Source: Kangiella sediminilitoris (GTDB lineage: Bacteria > Pseudomonadota > Gammaproteobacteria > Enterobacterales > Kangiellaceae). From it: a stretch of DNA of 64,000 bases. The translations under genes were made by a program, and so were the position numbers. Shown one piece after another: positions 8,995 to 12,995 of this stretch. Each line of letters begins with the position of its first letter. The first letter of the stretch is position 1. Location of the stretch: assembly GCF_001708405.1 (NCBI RefSeq), contig NZ_CP012418.1, forward strand, positions 310,001-374,000. The letters are read 5' to 3'. The notes below the pieces were generated by a model. It saw only the letters and a program-made list of their open reading frames with translations, searched no databases and was not told the DNA's origin.

Positions 8995-9627
8995 CTAGTC
9001 TTCTTTGTTTGGGTCGCTCTGCTGGTCCCAGTATTGTAGTTTACGGGTCAGTGTATTACGACCCCAGCCTAGTATTTTTGCAGCCTTTTGTTTGTGTCCC
9101 TGGCTGAGCCTTAAAGCAGACTCTGTGATGAACTGTTCAAACTCCTGCTGCATTTCTATCAGTACTTCACCGTTACCCTGATGATAATCGCTATCAATCT
9201 TTTTTTCTATTTGCTGTAGCCACAGTGGAATTTCACTACTGCTCCTCTGGCTATCCAAAGCGCGCTGACAGAGTTTAATAACGTGATTGATATCAAAAGG
9301 TTTCGGTAAATAGTCAAATGCTCCCAGCTCGTGGGTCTTGCTGCCAAGATCGGTATCGGCATAGGCCGTGATCATAATAACAGGGATATGTGGCCACTGC
9401 TGGTTAATGGCTTCGAGTAACTCAAGGCCTGTCATGCCGCTCATCTGGATGTCTGTAATGACGAGGTCAGGTGACTCTTCTTCGATAAGACTTAAAGCCT
9501 GTTGTCCACTGTCGCAGGCCAATACCTTAAATTGGGCATTGTTTAGCGCTCGTGCCAGCACCCAGCGTATGGAACTATCATCATCAACTACTAGAATGGT
9601 ATGGGTTAACTCGTTAGTCTGAGTCAC
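8995..9627 (-). CDS. ntrC: NtrC-type response regulator lacking the AAA+ domain
   Basis: A 210-residue protein where NtrC is about 470. Residues 1-120 are a complete receiver domain: acidic pocket D15-D17, phospho-acceptor D59 in DLVITDIQMSG, T88 and K110 in YLPKPFD. After a short linker the C-terminal 75 residues match the NtrC tail, including QGHKQKAAKILGWGRNTLTRKL, which is nearly identical to the Fis-type HTH of enteric NtrC. The GESGTGKE, GAFTGA and other sigma54-interaction motifs are wholly absent, with clean in-frame junctions. The start is GTG, overlapping the ntrB stop (GTGA). It cannot activate sigma54 in the usual way. RegA/ActR-like two-domain regulators are an alternative architecture, but the HTH sequence and the NtrB partner say NtrC. 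Confidence 0.93.
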   Translation of the reverse strand: MTQTNELTHTILVVDDDSSIRWVLARALNNAQFKVLACDSGQQALSLIEEESPDLVITDIQMSGMTGLELLEAINQQWPHIPVIMITAYADTDLGSKTHELGAFDYLPKPFDINHVIKLCQRALDSQRSSSEIPLWLQQIEKKIDSDYHQGNGEVLIEMQQEFEQFITESALRLSQGHKQKAAKILGWGRNTLTRKLQYWDQQSDPNKED

Positions 9628-10730
9628 GGGTTATTCTCCAGCTCGCTGGTTGCTTTTAAAGGTTTAAGTTCTTCGTCTTTGAGTATGGGTAAGTAAATAC
9701 TAAAGCAGGTTTTTTCAGCATTTGTGCTGAATTCTATAATTCCTTTCTGTTGCTGAATTAGACTCTGGGCGATTCCAAGGCCAAGTCCACTGCTATTTTT
9801 CCCACTGATTAAGGGAAAGAATATGTTTGGCTGAAGTTCAGCTGGGATGCCCGGTCCATTGTCTTCGACCTGAACGCAGACAGTGATAGGGTACTGGGTA
9901 TCACCAATTGTATGCCGGGGTAGTGCACGAGTTCGTATCGTTACCTGTCCCTGTTGCTGAGTTTCTACTGCCTCAATTGCGTTTTGAGTAAGGTTCAGTA
10001 CTGCCTGATAGACCGAGTCAGGTGCACCATAAAAGTCGGGGAGGCTGGGGTCGTAGTCTCGGATGAGTTCAATCTTGTCAGGCAGGTTGATTCTAGAAAG
10101 TTCCAATACCTTCTCGGTGGTTTCATGGATGTTCATTTCAACAAGAGTGGGCTTGTTGGTGGAGAGCAACATCCTATTAACCAGCTCTGTTAAACGGTTA
10201 CTTTCCTGTTCAATGATATCGGTAAGTTCACCAATGGATTCTTCAGGGCTTGAAGAAGATGCAGACTCGTGCTGCAACAACTGAGCGGCACCACGAATAC
10301 CACTGAGCGGATTTTTTATTTCGTGCGCCAGTTTCTGGAGTAAGCGTTCGCTGACCTGGTTCTGTTGTGATAACCCGCGAGCAAGGCCCCTGTGGGGAAA
10401 GTGCTGGGGGTTTTGCCACTCCACAATGAGGTAGGGTTCTTCTGCTGTAAACCAGTGCCCGGTGAGGTCTACCGTCAGTTGCTTGCCATTGAGGAGTTCC
10501 AGACTGACGCCGTCCAGGATGAACTGTCCATTTTGGCGTAATCCTTCAATTATATCATGCAAGGGGAGACTGTCGCTGGCAATGAAGTAACTGTAACGTT
10601 TGCCTTGAAGGACTTTGCTGCTGGTTGAGAAAGCTTTTTCTGCTGCTTGATTAAGGTAGGTAAAACGCCCGTGTGCATCAAATACGATAATAGATGTTGA
10701 GAGGTTGTCCAGAAGGCGGTCGAACTGCAT
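9624..10730 (-). CDS. ntrB: nitrogen-regulation sensor histidine kinase NtrB
   Basis: A soluble kinase/phosphatase acting on NtrC under PII control. From the ATG at 10730 (MQFDRLLDNLSTS) it has 368 residues: a PAS domain (about 1-110), the DHp domain with phospho-acceptor His in LAHEIKNPLSGIRGAAQLL, and a catalytic domain with NLTQNAIEAV (N box), DNGPGIP and GLGLGIAQ. The stretch LPDKIELIRDYDPSLP is typical NtrB. A GTG at 10790 would extend the frame by 20 residues, but it lies inside an NtrC-box-like palindrome and promoter, so I reject it. Intact although its partner lost the AAA+ domain. Confidence 0.94.
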   Translation of the reverse strand: MQFDRLLDNLSTSIIVFDAHGRFTYLNQAAEKAFSTSSKVLQGKRYSYFIASDSLPLHDIIEGLRQNGQFILDGVSLELLNGKQLTVDLTGHWFTAEEPYLIVEWQNPQHFPHRGLARGLSQQNQVSERLLQKLAHEIKNPLSGIRGAAQLLQHESASSSSPEESIGELTDIIEQESNRLTELVNRMLLSTNKPTLVEMNIHETTEKVLELSRINLPDKIELIRDYDPSLPDFYGAPDSVYQAVLNLTQNAIEAVETQQQGQVTIRTRALPRHTIGDTQYPITVCVQVEDNGPGIPAELQPNIFFPLISGKNSSGLGLGIAQSLIQQQKGIIEFSTNAEKTCFSIYLPILKDEELKPLKATSELENNP

Positions 10731-10762: not shown

Positions 10763-10802
10763 AGTATAACAGTTCATGAGTTAAATGCACCGTTTTGGTG
10801 CG
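10763..10802 (-). promoter_or_regulatory. ntrB promoter overlapped by an NtrC box
   Basis: TGCACCGTTTTGGTGCG at 10786-10802 matches the NtrC consensus TGCAC-N7-GTGCA except for the last base. Downstream on the minus strand an extended -10 (TGTTATACT; hexamer 10763-10768) is seen. The box covers the -35 position, which predicts autorepression, as at the E. coli glnL promoter. Confidence 0.7.
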
Positions 10803-10809
10803 AGGGTAG

Positions 10810-11349
10810 TTATTGGTTGCCCGTTGAAGGCTTAGTAAAGCTAAAGCTAACAGCTGAAGTTGTCTGTAGCTGCTGACCGCTTTCTTTATCTATGACGACT
10901 ACTTCTGCCTTATGTCTACCAGCATCTAATTGCCTCACATTGAAATAAGGGGAGTTTTGCGGGGAGCCGTGGTTCTTTCCATTCAGTCTGAGCTGAAGTT
11001 GGTGCTCCGGTTTCAATCTAGGGGTGATACCAATAATAAGCGTGACATTACCATCGGCATTTATGACCTCATCACCTTGTTTAGGGCTATCAATAGAAAA
11101 CACACTGTATACCGGCTCTTCTGGAGCAGGCTCCTCGGGTTGCTTTTTCTCTTGTGGCTTAACTTTGGGTGTTTCGACGACATTTATGCCAGTGTTAATT
11201 TTGACTTCCTGCGAACCGGGAATTGGCTTATCTGTGAAGGTGACTTTTCCATCCTTATCAACTTTTTTGTATAGCACTACTTCGTCGGCAGCATATGCAG
11301 CAGGTGCTAGCATGAGAAAAATGGCAGGTAGGTAGTCAAGATACTTCAT
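10810..11349 (-). CDS. secreted DUF4124-domain protein
   Basis: A 179-residue exported protein. Residues 1-20 are a signal peptide ending AYA. DUF4124 follows (VLYKKVDKDGKVTFTDKPIPGSQEV), then a Pro/Glu-rich linker (KVKPQEKKQPEEPAPEEP, about 62-79) and a C-terminal Ig-like fold resembling a bacterial surface beta-sandwich (GNVTLIIGITPRL to VSFSFTKP). DUF4124 proteins often lie near glnA-ntrB in gammaproteobacteria, but their function is not established. Located between glnA and ntrB on the same strand. Confidence 0.85.
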   Translation of the reverse strand: MKYLDYLPAIFLMLAPAAYAADEVVLYKKVDKDGKVTFTDKPIPGSQEVKINTGINVVETPKVKPQEKKQPEEPAPEEPVYSVFSIDSPKQGDEVINADGNVTLIIGITPRLKPEHQLQLRLNGKNHGSPQNSPYFNVRQLDAGRHKAEVVVIDKESGQQLQTTSAVSFSFTKPSTGNQ

Positions 11350-11465: not shown

Positions 11466-12875
11466 CTACAGGCTGTAGTATAGATCGAACTCAACCGGAG
11501 ATGGTGTTAGTTTCAAGCGCTCAACATCTTCTTTCTTAAGAGCGATGTATGCATCTAACATGTCATCTGAGAACACGCCGCCGCGAGTTAAGAACTCACG
11601 ATCTTTGTCTAAAGCGTCTAACGCTTCTTCTAAAGAACCGGCAACCTGTGGGATAGCCTTAGCTTCTTCTGCAGGAAGATCATATAGGTCTTTATCCATT
11701 GCATCACCTGGGTGAATTTTATTTTGGATACCGTCTAAACCAGCCATCATCAACGCTGCAAAAGCTAGGTAAGGGTTAGCCATTGGATCTGGGAAGCGAA
11801 CCTCAATACGACGGGCCTTAGCACTTCCTACGTGTGGAACGCGAATAGACGCTGAACGGTTTTTAGCTGAGTAAGCCAACATGACCGGTGCTTCGAAGCC
11901 AGGAACCAAACGTTTGTAAGAGTTCGTCGATGGGTTAGTTAGAGCATTCAATGCGCGTGCGTGCTTGATGATGCCGCCAATGTAATACAGTGCTTCCTCA
12001 GACAGACCTGCATATTTGTCACCTGCAAAGATGTTGTTGCCTTCTTTGGCTAATGACATGTGTACATGCATACCAGAACCGTTATCACCAAAAACAGGTT
12101 TTGGCATAAAGGTCGCGGTTTTACCATAGGCATGAGCAACGTTATGAACAACATATTTATATGTTTGGATCTCATCAGCTTTTTTAACTAAAGAGTTAAA
12201 TTGAGTTGCGATCTCATTCTGTCCAGCGGTACCAACTTCGTGGTGGTGAGCTTCAATCACTTGCCCCATGCTTTCTAGGACAAGACACATTTGAGAGCGA
12301 AGGTCTTGTGAAGAGTCAACCGGAGGAACTGGGAAGTAACCACCTTTTACACGAGGGCGGTGACCGATGTTACCACCTTCGTAACTTTTGTCAGAGTTCC
12401 AGGCAGACTCTGGATCGTCAATTTTGTAAAAAGAGCCACCCATGTCAGTTTTAAACTTAACATCTTCAAATACGAAAAACTCTGGCTCTGGACCGAAAAA
12501 TGCTGAATCAGCAAGGCCTGTTGATTTTAGGTATTCTTCTGCGCGCTTAGCAACTGAGCGTGGGTCGCGGTCATAACCGCTCATGGTAGCGGGTTCAAGA
12601 ATATCGCAGCGTAATTGTAATGTTGCGTCTTCATAAAAAGGATCCATGACTGCAGAGTCCGTGTTTGGCATTAGAACCATGTCAGACTCGTTGATTCCTT
12701 TCCAGCCTGCGATTGAAGAACCGTCGAACATTTTACCTTCGCTCAGAAGATCTTCATCCACCACGCGGGCAGGGATAGTGACGTGCTGCTCTTTACCTTT
12801 GGTATCAGTAAAACGTAAGTCAACAAACTTAACGTCATACTCTTCAATCATTTTTAAAACATTGTCTACTGACAT
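11466..12875 (-). CDS. glnA: glutamine synthetase type I
   Basis: ATP-dependent synthesis of glutamine from glutamate and ammonia; a cytosolic dodecamer. It has 469 residues, identical in length to E. coli. The beta-grasp N-terminus, [12 protein letters not shown], the catalytic [23 protein letters not shown], the His/Glu metal ligands in [10 protein letters not shown] and [27 protein letters not shown] and [16 protein letters not shown] are all present. [12 protein letters not shown] contains the adenylylation Tyr near residue 398, so GlnE-type control is expected. Upstream lie an NtrC box and an extended -10 promoter. Confidence 0.98.
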
Positions 12876-12920: not shown

Positions 12921-12995
12921 ATTATACCAACGGTGAAAAACAAAACTATTTAGAAGTAATTAAAAACAAGAATGTATTGCACTAAATTGGTGCAA
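12921..12995 (-). promoter_or_regulatory. glnA promoter with canonical NtrC box
   Basis: TTGCACTAAATTGGTGCAA (12977-12995) is a textbook NtrC site with perfect 6-bp arms. On the minus strand an extended -10, TGGTATAAT (hexamer 12921-12926), lies 46 bases before the glnA ATG. The box is centred about 72 bases upstream of the implied start site. No GG-N10-GC sigma54 core is visible between box and gene. Confidence 0.75.

Follow-up and report, generated by a model that had tools for sequence, protein, structure and literature searches.

NtrC is the textbook sigma54 activator. Among the closest known systems to the locus analyzed here is enteric NtrC (NR-I, GlnG) with its partner NtrB, which has the same glnA-ntrB-ntrC locus, receiver, DNA-binding domain and type of palindrome. 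The enteric targets glnA and ntrBC are also found in Kangiella, along with amtB-glnK in three genomes. Compared with enteric NtrC, however, the Kangiella protein has no AAA+ domain, GAFTGA motif or ATPase, its glnA has no sigma54 promoter, and one palindrome near the glnA start takes the place of distant enhancers.

RegA, PrrA and ActR consist of a receiver and a Fis-type helix-turn-helix (HTH) in about 180-210 amino acids, and they act with sigma70 polymerase. The short NtrC of Kangiella resembles them in architecture but not in descent, its C-terminal domain being NtrC's own. The model for this family (NF033791) scored 70.9 bits against a cut-off of 250, and it matched residues 9-136 only rather than the whole length. 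The likeness is evidently one of convergent architecture, with the locus and the sister genera pointing to an origin by domain loss.

NtrC proteins without GAFTGA have been reported at sigma70 promoters of nitrogen genes in Rhodobacter capsulatus and Caulobacter; ATP binding is reported to be essential for the former, and the Walker residues are needed in the latter (PMC10274813, accessible portion). These proteins keep the AAA+ domain, whereas the Kangiella NtrC lacks all of it. Because the sigma70-using NtrCs described in that portion retain the domain, its complete excision, together with replacement of the promoter, appears new by comparison. Neither an NtrC lacking the whole AAA+ domain nor this Kangiella trait is described in the literature searched, which took in few subscription papers and included the accessible part of PMC11849500. 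Class I activators such as CRP bind roughly one or two turns ahead of where polymerase sits, at promoters with a weak -35, as at Kangiella glnA (PMC6301791, accessible part). The CRP fold is unrelated to the short NtrC, and contact with the alpha-subunit C-terminal domain (alpha-CTD) in Kangiella is a prediction.

The short NtrC of the window

The window, a stretch of 64,000 nucleotides from Kangiella sediminilitoris (contig NZ_CP012418.1, positions 310,001 to 374,000), contains the following two-component pair.

8995..9627, minus strand: short ntrC, receiver plus NtrC-type dimerisation/Fis-like HTH, AAA+ absent
Short NtrC residues 11-118: receiver (Pfam Response_reg) with phosphorylatable D59
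Short NtrC residues about 136-200: NtrC-type dimerisation/Fis-like HTH domain
9624..10730, minus strand: ntrB, complete sensor kinase, likely starting at the internal ATG 10730

The ntrC frame opens with GTG and encodes 210 amino acids without an internal stop. A Pfam search of the protein returned Response_reg over residues 11-118 (PF00072, E 2.2e-32), HTH_8 over residues 167-198 and a weak FleQ match inside the receiver; Sigma54_activat (PF00158) was not found. TIGR01818 and NF008176 scored 178.9 and 177.1 bits, below their cut-offs of 558.6 and 620. By Pfam, NCBIfam and alignment, the protein lacks the central AAA+ domain with GAFTGA and Walker motifs that defines an NtrC. Bacterial enhancer-binding proteins are recognized by an AAA+ domain with GAFTGA and by a sigma54 partner; here the domain is absent and rpoN was not found in the genome. 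Without the AAA+ domain, the short NtrC cannot act as a sigma54 activator.

When E. coli NtrC (NC_000913.3) was aligned with nine of the 19 genus proteins, all other than the window's own, the receiver and C-terminal domain were collinear on either side of the missing domain. A profile of the C-terminal domain gave 1ntc, the NtrC DNA-binding domain, as its top PDB match (E 1.1e-14), followed by a Fis-like protein (E 0.0019) and FIS (E 0.0066). The AlphaFold model of the short NtrC has a mean pLDDT of 66.7, with residues 169-197 (the HTH region) below 50. NtrB contains HisKA and HATPase_c (Pfam) and scored 262.7 bits with NF008293 (cut-off 240). ATG 10730 fits better as its start than the mechanically assigned GTG 10790, because the latter falls on the promoter, where it overlaps the palindrome.

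A sequence-only reading had described an NtrC with its AAA+ domain cleanly missing, an intact receiver with D59, an NtrC-type HTH tail, a complete NtrB and flanks that align with enteric NtrC, and each of these descriptions held. Descent, locus, partner and sites all mark the short protein as an NtrC. A RegA-type regulator in place of NtrC was ruled out by the locus, the tree described below and the 1ntc match. That reading had also named an intact ntrC elsewhere in the genome as a finding that would overturn it, and none was found by PF00158 scan and genus comparison. Of the six PF00158 matches that a search for other sigma54 activators yielded in the window genome, two were strong, one a PEP-CTERM PrsR and the other a degenerate PilR/AtoC-like regulator; the remaining four were weak (E 5e-6 to 7e-4).

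Conservation in Kangiella and the order of losses

Our family sample comprised 40 genomes, 20 of them from Kangiella. The short NtrC frame is present in 19 of these 20 with an open frame of 204-247 amino acids, so that the same deletion, which the earlier reading had proposed looking for in related genomes, recurs across the genus; a close ntrC match was not found in the remaining genome (G022), which is 55% complete. Receiver-to-HTH spacing is 171 or 172 residues and D59 is invariant in all 19 proteins. Of eight close pairs, the three with unsaturated synonymous sites gave dN/dS values of about 0.016, 0.05 and 0.05, and the gene is by this measure under strong purifying selection.

We compared these loci with four sister genera (g2, g3, g6 and g4, leaving aside g5). 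Eleven loci from g2, g3 and g6 encode a full-length NtrC with GAFTGA or GSFTGA behind ntrB, and NtrC is also full length in g4 (L115). The short NtrC query matched nine sister loci as two pieces roughly 800 bp apart. The neighbours of ntrB-ntrC are common to Kangiella and the full-length sister genera. The ntrB-ntrC pair is present in all nine sister loci; glnA lies beside ntrB in four of them (L110, L111, L115 and L118) and was not found within the stretch in the other five. In Kangiella, glnA adjoins ntrB-ntrC in 18 of 19 loci, the exception being G024, where it is on another contig. trmL follows ntrC in the 19 Kangiella loci; three sister stretches also contained it. A related-locus search returned five loci from Kangiella, together with 10 other response-regulator loci.

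Neither a Pfam domain search nor a full-length RpoN query detected RpoN in the window's one-contig genome. Across the sample, rpoN (PF04552) was detected in 12/20 Kangiella genomes and in 20/20 other family genomes. The full RpoN query found none in the eight rpoN-less Kangiella genomes, and it matched in the four rpoN-positive ones included. We built a maximum likelihood tree from NtrB and the two retained NtrC domains of 19 Kangiella, nine full-length relatives, three other short forms and E. coli (G022 was left out). Both the Kangiella clade and, nested within it, a clade of seven rpoN-less genomes had 100% support. The AAA+ domain was evidently lost on the Kangiella stem, and rpoN later, once in our sample. 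This order follows from the near-universal short NtrC, the retention of rpoN in most of the genus and the nesting of the rpoN-less clade. The suggestion that the lineage had lost rpoN was therefore right for the window genome and wrong as the setting of the domain loss, as 12 of 20 Kangiella keep rpoN together with the short NtrC. Loss of rpoN as the cause of the domain loss was rejected, since the order of events is reversed.

Sigma54 and its activators have been reported to match near-perfectly across genomes (Francke et al., PMC3162934, accessible portion). We located two other activator homologues in Kangiella.

L001:1060-2409 (G000:C1 about 149.8 kb) and L075-L080: PrsR-type regulator of the rpoN-less Kangiella
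L002:1084-2400 and L119-L131: PilR/AtoC-like regulator beside a pilin-like gene

The PrsR-type regulator was identified in L001 by TIGR02915 (620.3 bits) and at the other loci by similarity of its ends. All 12 rpoN-positive genomes have GAFTGA in this protein; in all seven rpoN-less ones the loop is altered (to ATGFS, ASGFS, AAGFN or similar), with intact Walker motifs in L001. This change appears to be an independent sign of the order of losses. In all 14 Kangiella genomes examined, eight of which are rpoN-positive, the PilR/AtoC-like regulator is missing both loop 1 and the acidic Walker B residues. Its best NCBIfam model is AtoC, below cut-off, and it was compared within Kangiella only; the PilR label is our assumption from its neighbours.

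The glnA and ntrB promoters

The promoter features upstream of short ntrC in the window are as follows.

10763..10768, minus strand: predicted -10 of ntrB, TATACT, 17 bp downstream of the palindrome
10786..10802, no strand assigned: NtrC palindrome over the -35 region of ntrB
10810..11349, minus strand: DUF4124 gene between glnA and ntrB
11466..12875, minus strand: glnA, glutamine synthetase, probable main target
12921..12926, minus strand: predicted sigma70 -10 of glnA, TATAAT, located 51 bp past the palindrome; no -35 is recognisable
12978..12994, no strand assigned: lone NtrC palindrome TGCACCAATTTAGTGCA ahead of glnA, centred at about -72 relative to the inferred start

The DUF4124 gene has low conservation; it lies between glnA and ntrB in 18 of 19 Kangiella loci, and L107 (G030) gave no match for it.

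The four sister loci with glnA carry a mismatch-free sigma54 element 70-71 bp before the ATG, and one to three NtrC-like palindromes (1-3 mismatches) 170-222 bp before it. None of 18 Kangiella glnA loci has a sigma54 element with at most one mismatch; four have a chance-like element with two. The E. coli glnA control showed two palindromes and a sigma54 element, with one mismatch each. In Kangiella the glnA palindrome is present with 0-2 mismatches in all 19 loci (the 18 plus L178), and TATAAT follows it at 51-53 bp in 18 of them. In the exception, L107, TATAAT occurs at 23 and 41 bp, with near-matches (TATTAT) at 50 and 53; if the copy at 41 bp is used, the centre falls at -62, one helical turn less. 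A further TATAAT lies at 33 bp in L101 and L102. At spacers of 16-18, the best -35 matches TTGACA at 1-3 of 6 positions in all 19 loci.

Shuffling of upstream regions produced a palindrome with one mismatch or none in 1 case out of 4400. In shuffled intervals, TATAAT fell at one of the three positions (51-53 bp) in 0.2-0.75% per locus (p 0.002-0.0075); the loci are related, so these values are not 19 independent tests, and the spacing appears in all four main lineages of the tree. Conservation of the glnA footprint is partly shared ancestry, though the intervening sequence has diverged.

With the start inferred from the -10 at an assumed distance, the site centres lie at -72 to -74 in 18 of 19 loci, and a class I site is expected at about -62 or -72 with a weak -35. 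CRP acts strongly in vivo at -61.5, -71.5 and -72.5 and hardly at all at -66.5 and -76.5; the values compared do not cover -73 and -74, the positions of many Kangiella sites (PMC6301791, accessible part). The geometry suggests a class I activator working at a sigma70 promoter.

At ntrB, an upstream palindrome with at most three mismatches is present in all 19 Kangiella loci. A -10-like hexamer (at most one mismatch) lies 16-19 bp downstream in 18 of them, the exception being L103. The downstream half of the palindrome would therefore occupy the ntrB -35. In the sister loci, 7/9 have a -10-like hexamer 15-20 bp past the ntrB palindrome, while none was found at 14-20 bp from the E. coli glnL palindrome. 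The ntrB site has the look of an ancestral control element whose function requires no ATPase, and it probably represses ntrBC. Autorepression of ntrC is reported in Caulobacter (PMC10274813, accessible portion).

NtrBC had been proposed to be rewired into an ordinary sigma70 activator or repressor. The glnA promoter does point to the housekeeping polymerase. As read from promoter geometry, the direction divides by site: at glnA the short NtrC is probably a class I activator, and at ntrB its site overlies the -35 region.

We also scanned the 20 Kangiella genomes for YGCACYNNNNNRGTGCR without mismatch and found 57 places. The glnA and ntrB sites of 19 genomes account for 38 of these; the other 19 compare with 16 for a reversed-pattern control. 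In six genomes the glnA and ntrB sites are the only strict-pattern matches. Eight of the 19 other places were inspected; three of these are palindromes just upstream of amtB-glnK, in the window genome (C1:1678038), G021 and G029.

L174:3039-3055, L177:1787-1803 and L179:1957-1973: NtrC palindromes upstream of amtB-glnK

By eye, the three amtB sites share no -10 spacing. Two PII genes are present. The visible regulon appears to be very small, consisting of glnA, ntrBC and, in three genomes, amtB-glnK.

Proposed mechanism and short forms elsewhere

The best explanation, to which we assign a probability of about 0.6, is that excision of the AAA+ domain was joined to a class I sigma70 promoter at glnA, activated by the short NtrC, with rpoN lost later. 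The domain was deleted in frame in a Kangiella ancestor, leaving a receiver, presumably controlled by NtrB, on an intact and probably dimeric NtrC DNA-binding domain. The glnA promoter lost its sigma54 element and distant enhancer sites, and a single palindrome became established some 72 bp ahead of a presumed sigma70-type start that has a perfect -10 but no -35. Under nitrogen limitation, the short NtrC, phosphorylated by NtrB, would bind this palindrome and recruit housekeeping RNA polymerase via the alpha-CTD as a class I activator. At its own ntrBC promoter it would bind over the -35 and probably repress, an arrangement seen in the sister genera too. In one subclade rpoN was later lost, and there PrsR lost GAFTGA.

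The short NtrC could instead be a repressor only, holding the glnA and ntrB sigma70 promoters down until its phosphorylation state changes, with no activation step. Repression is possible without an ATPase, and in 18 of 19 Kangiella loci the -35 region of ntrB lies under the palindrome. Caulobacter NtrC is reported to repress its own locus and some genes under sigma70-type control (PMC10274813, accessible portion), and outside Kangiella the L155 locus described below has two palindromes near the glnA ATG, one of which contains TATAAT. The Kangiella glnA site, however, ends 51-53 bp before the -10 in 18 of 19 loci, upstream of the -35 region; this position and the lack of a recognisable -35 suggest a need for activation, and we consider a repressor-only role unlikely. 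It seems distinctly improbable that the short NtrC works at glnA with or through another regulator, or by Fis-like DNA bending, rather than by polymerase contact. Its DNA-binding domain does belong to the HTH_8/Fis family, and a TAGT motif recurs near the -35 distance in one large clade. That motif is not shared by the other clade, however, and no second palindrome recurs in the interval by eye.

A decaying remnant with no regulatory role would fit the impossibility of sigma54 activation without AAA+ and the loss of rpoN in the window genome's clade. This is hardly credible against the low dN/dS, the invariant receiver and HTH residues and the operator sites kept across the genus; a pseudogene was ruled out by the 19 genomes and the dN/dS. 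A segment missing through an assembly or sequencing deletion, which the sequence-only reading had named as a refuter, has practically negligible probability given the same form in 19 genomes classed as separate species, and assembly error was ruled out on this ground.

Beyond the class I account of glnA, we see about even odds that Kangiella represents a stepwise exit from sigma54. The NtrC motor and the loop 1 and Walker B of the PilR/AtoC-like regulator would have been lost, glnA would have moved to class I sigma70 control, and rpoN and the PrsR GAFTGA would have gone later in one clade. One excision and re-tuning of a promoter would have turned an enhancer-binding protein into a class I activator, and the excision would have occurred more than once. 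Although Kangiella has lost the whole AAA+ domain, it keeps the operon and the binding sites, and selection on the gene persists. Both the state preceding the loss of rpoN and the state following it are represented in the genus, and with few visible targets it is a tractable natural experiment in how activator and promoter switch polymerase in concert and how bacteria leave sigma54.

In a search of 369 genomes of the class, the short form was also found, among the matches listed, in at least G756 and G661 (g333) and G404 (g121). rpoN is present in G756 and G661 and was not found in G404, a 1.7 Mb genome. Among the matches listed for the order (394 genomes) and the phylum (398 genomes), which are overlapping sets, there was no short form outside Kangiella. 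All three genomes have glnA-ntrB-short ntrC, and each protein comprises only a receiver and HTH_8. Upstream of their glnA genes are palindromes with 0-2 mismatches, no sigma54 element with at most one mismatch, and no 51-53 bp spacing. Near-consensus -10 hexamers lie at 30, 39 and 57 bp in L153 and at 18 and 67 bp in L154. In L155 (G404), upstream of 3594, two palindromes (0 and 1 mismatch) lie 30 bp apart just before the glnA ATG. As one of them contains TATAAT, the read-out may differ, and the arrangement looks more like repression. Two further genera of the class thus have the short-NtrC architecture, and their promoter spacing differs from that of Kangiella.

L187-L190 contain further activator homologues. 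In G032, G033 and G022, where rpoN was not found, the homologue has eroded GAFTGA and catalytic motifs; in rpoN-positive G031, the loop is eroded and the Walker motifs are intact.
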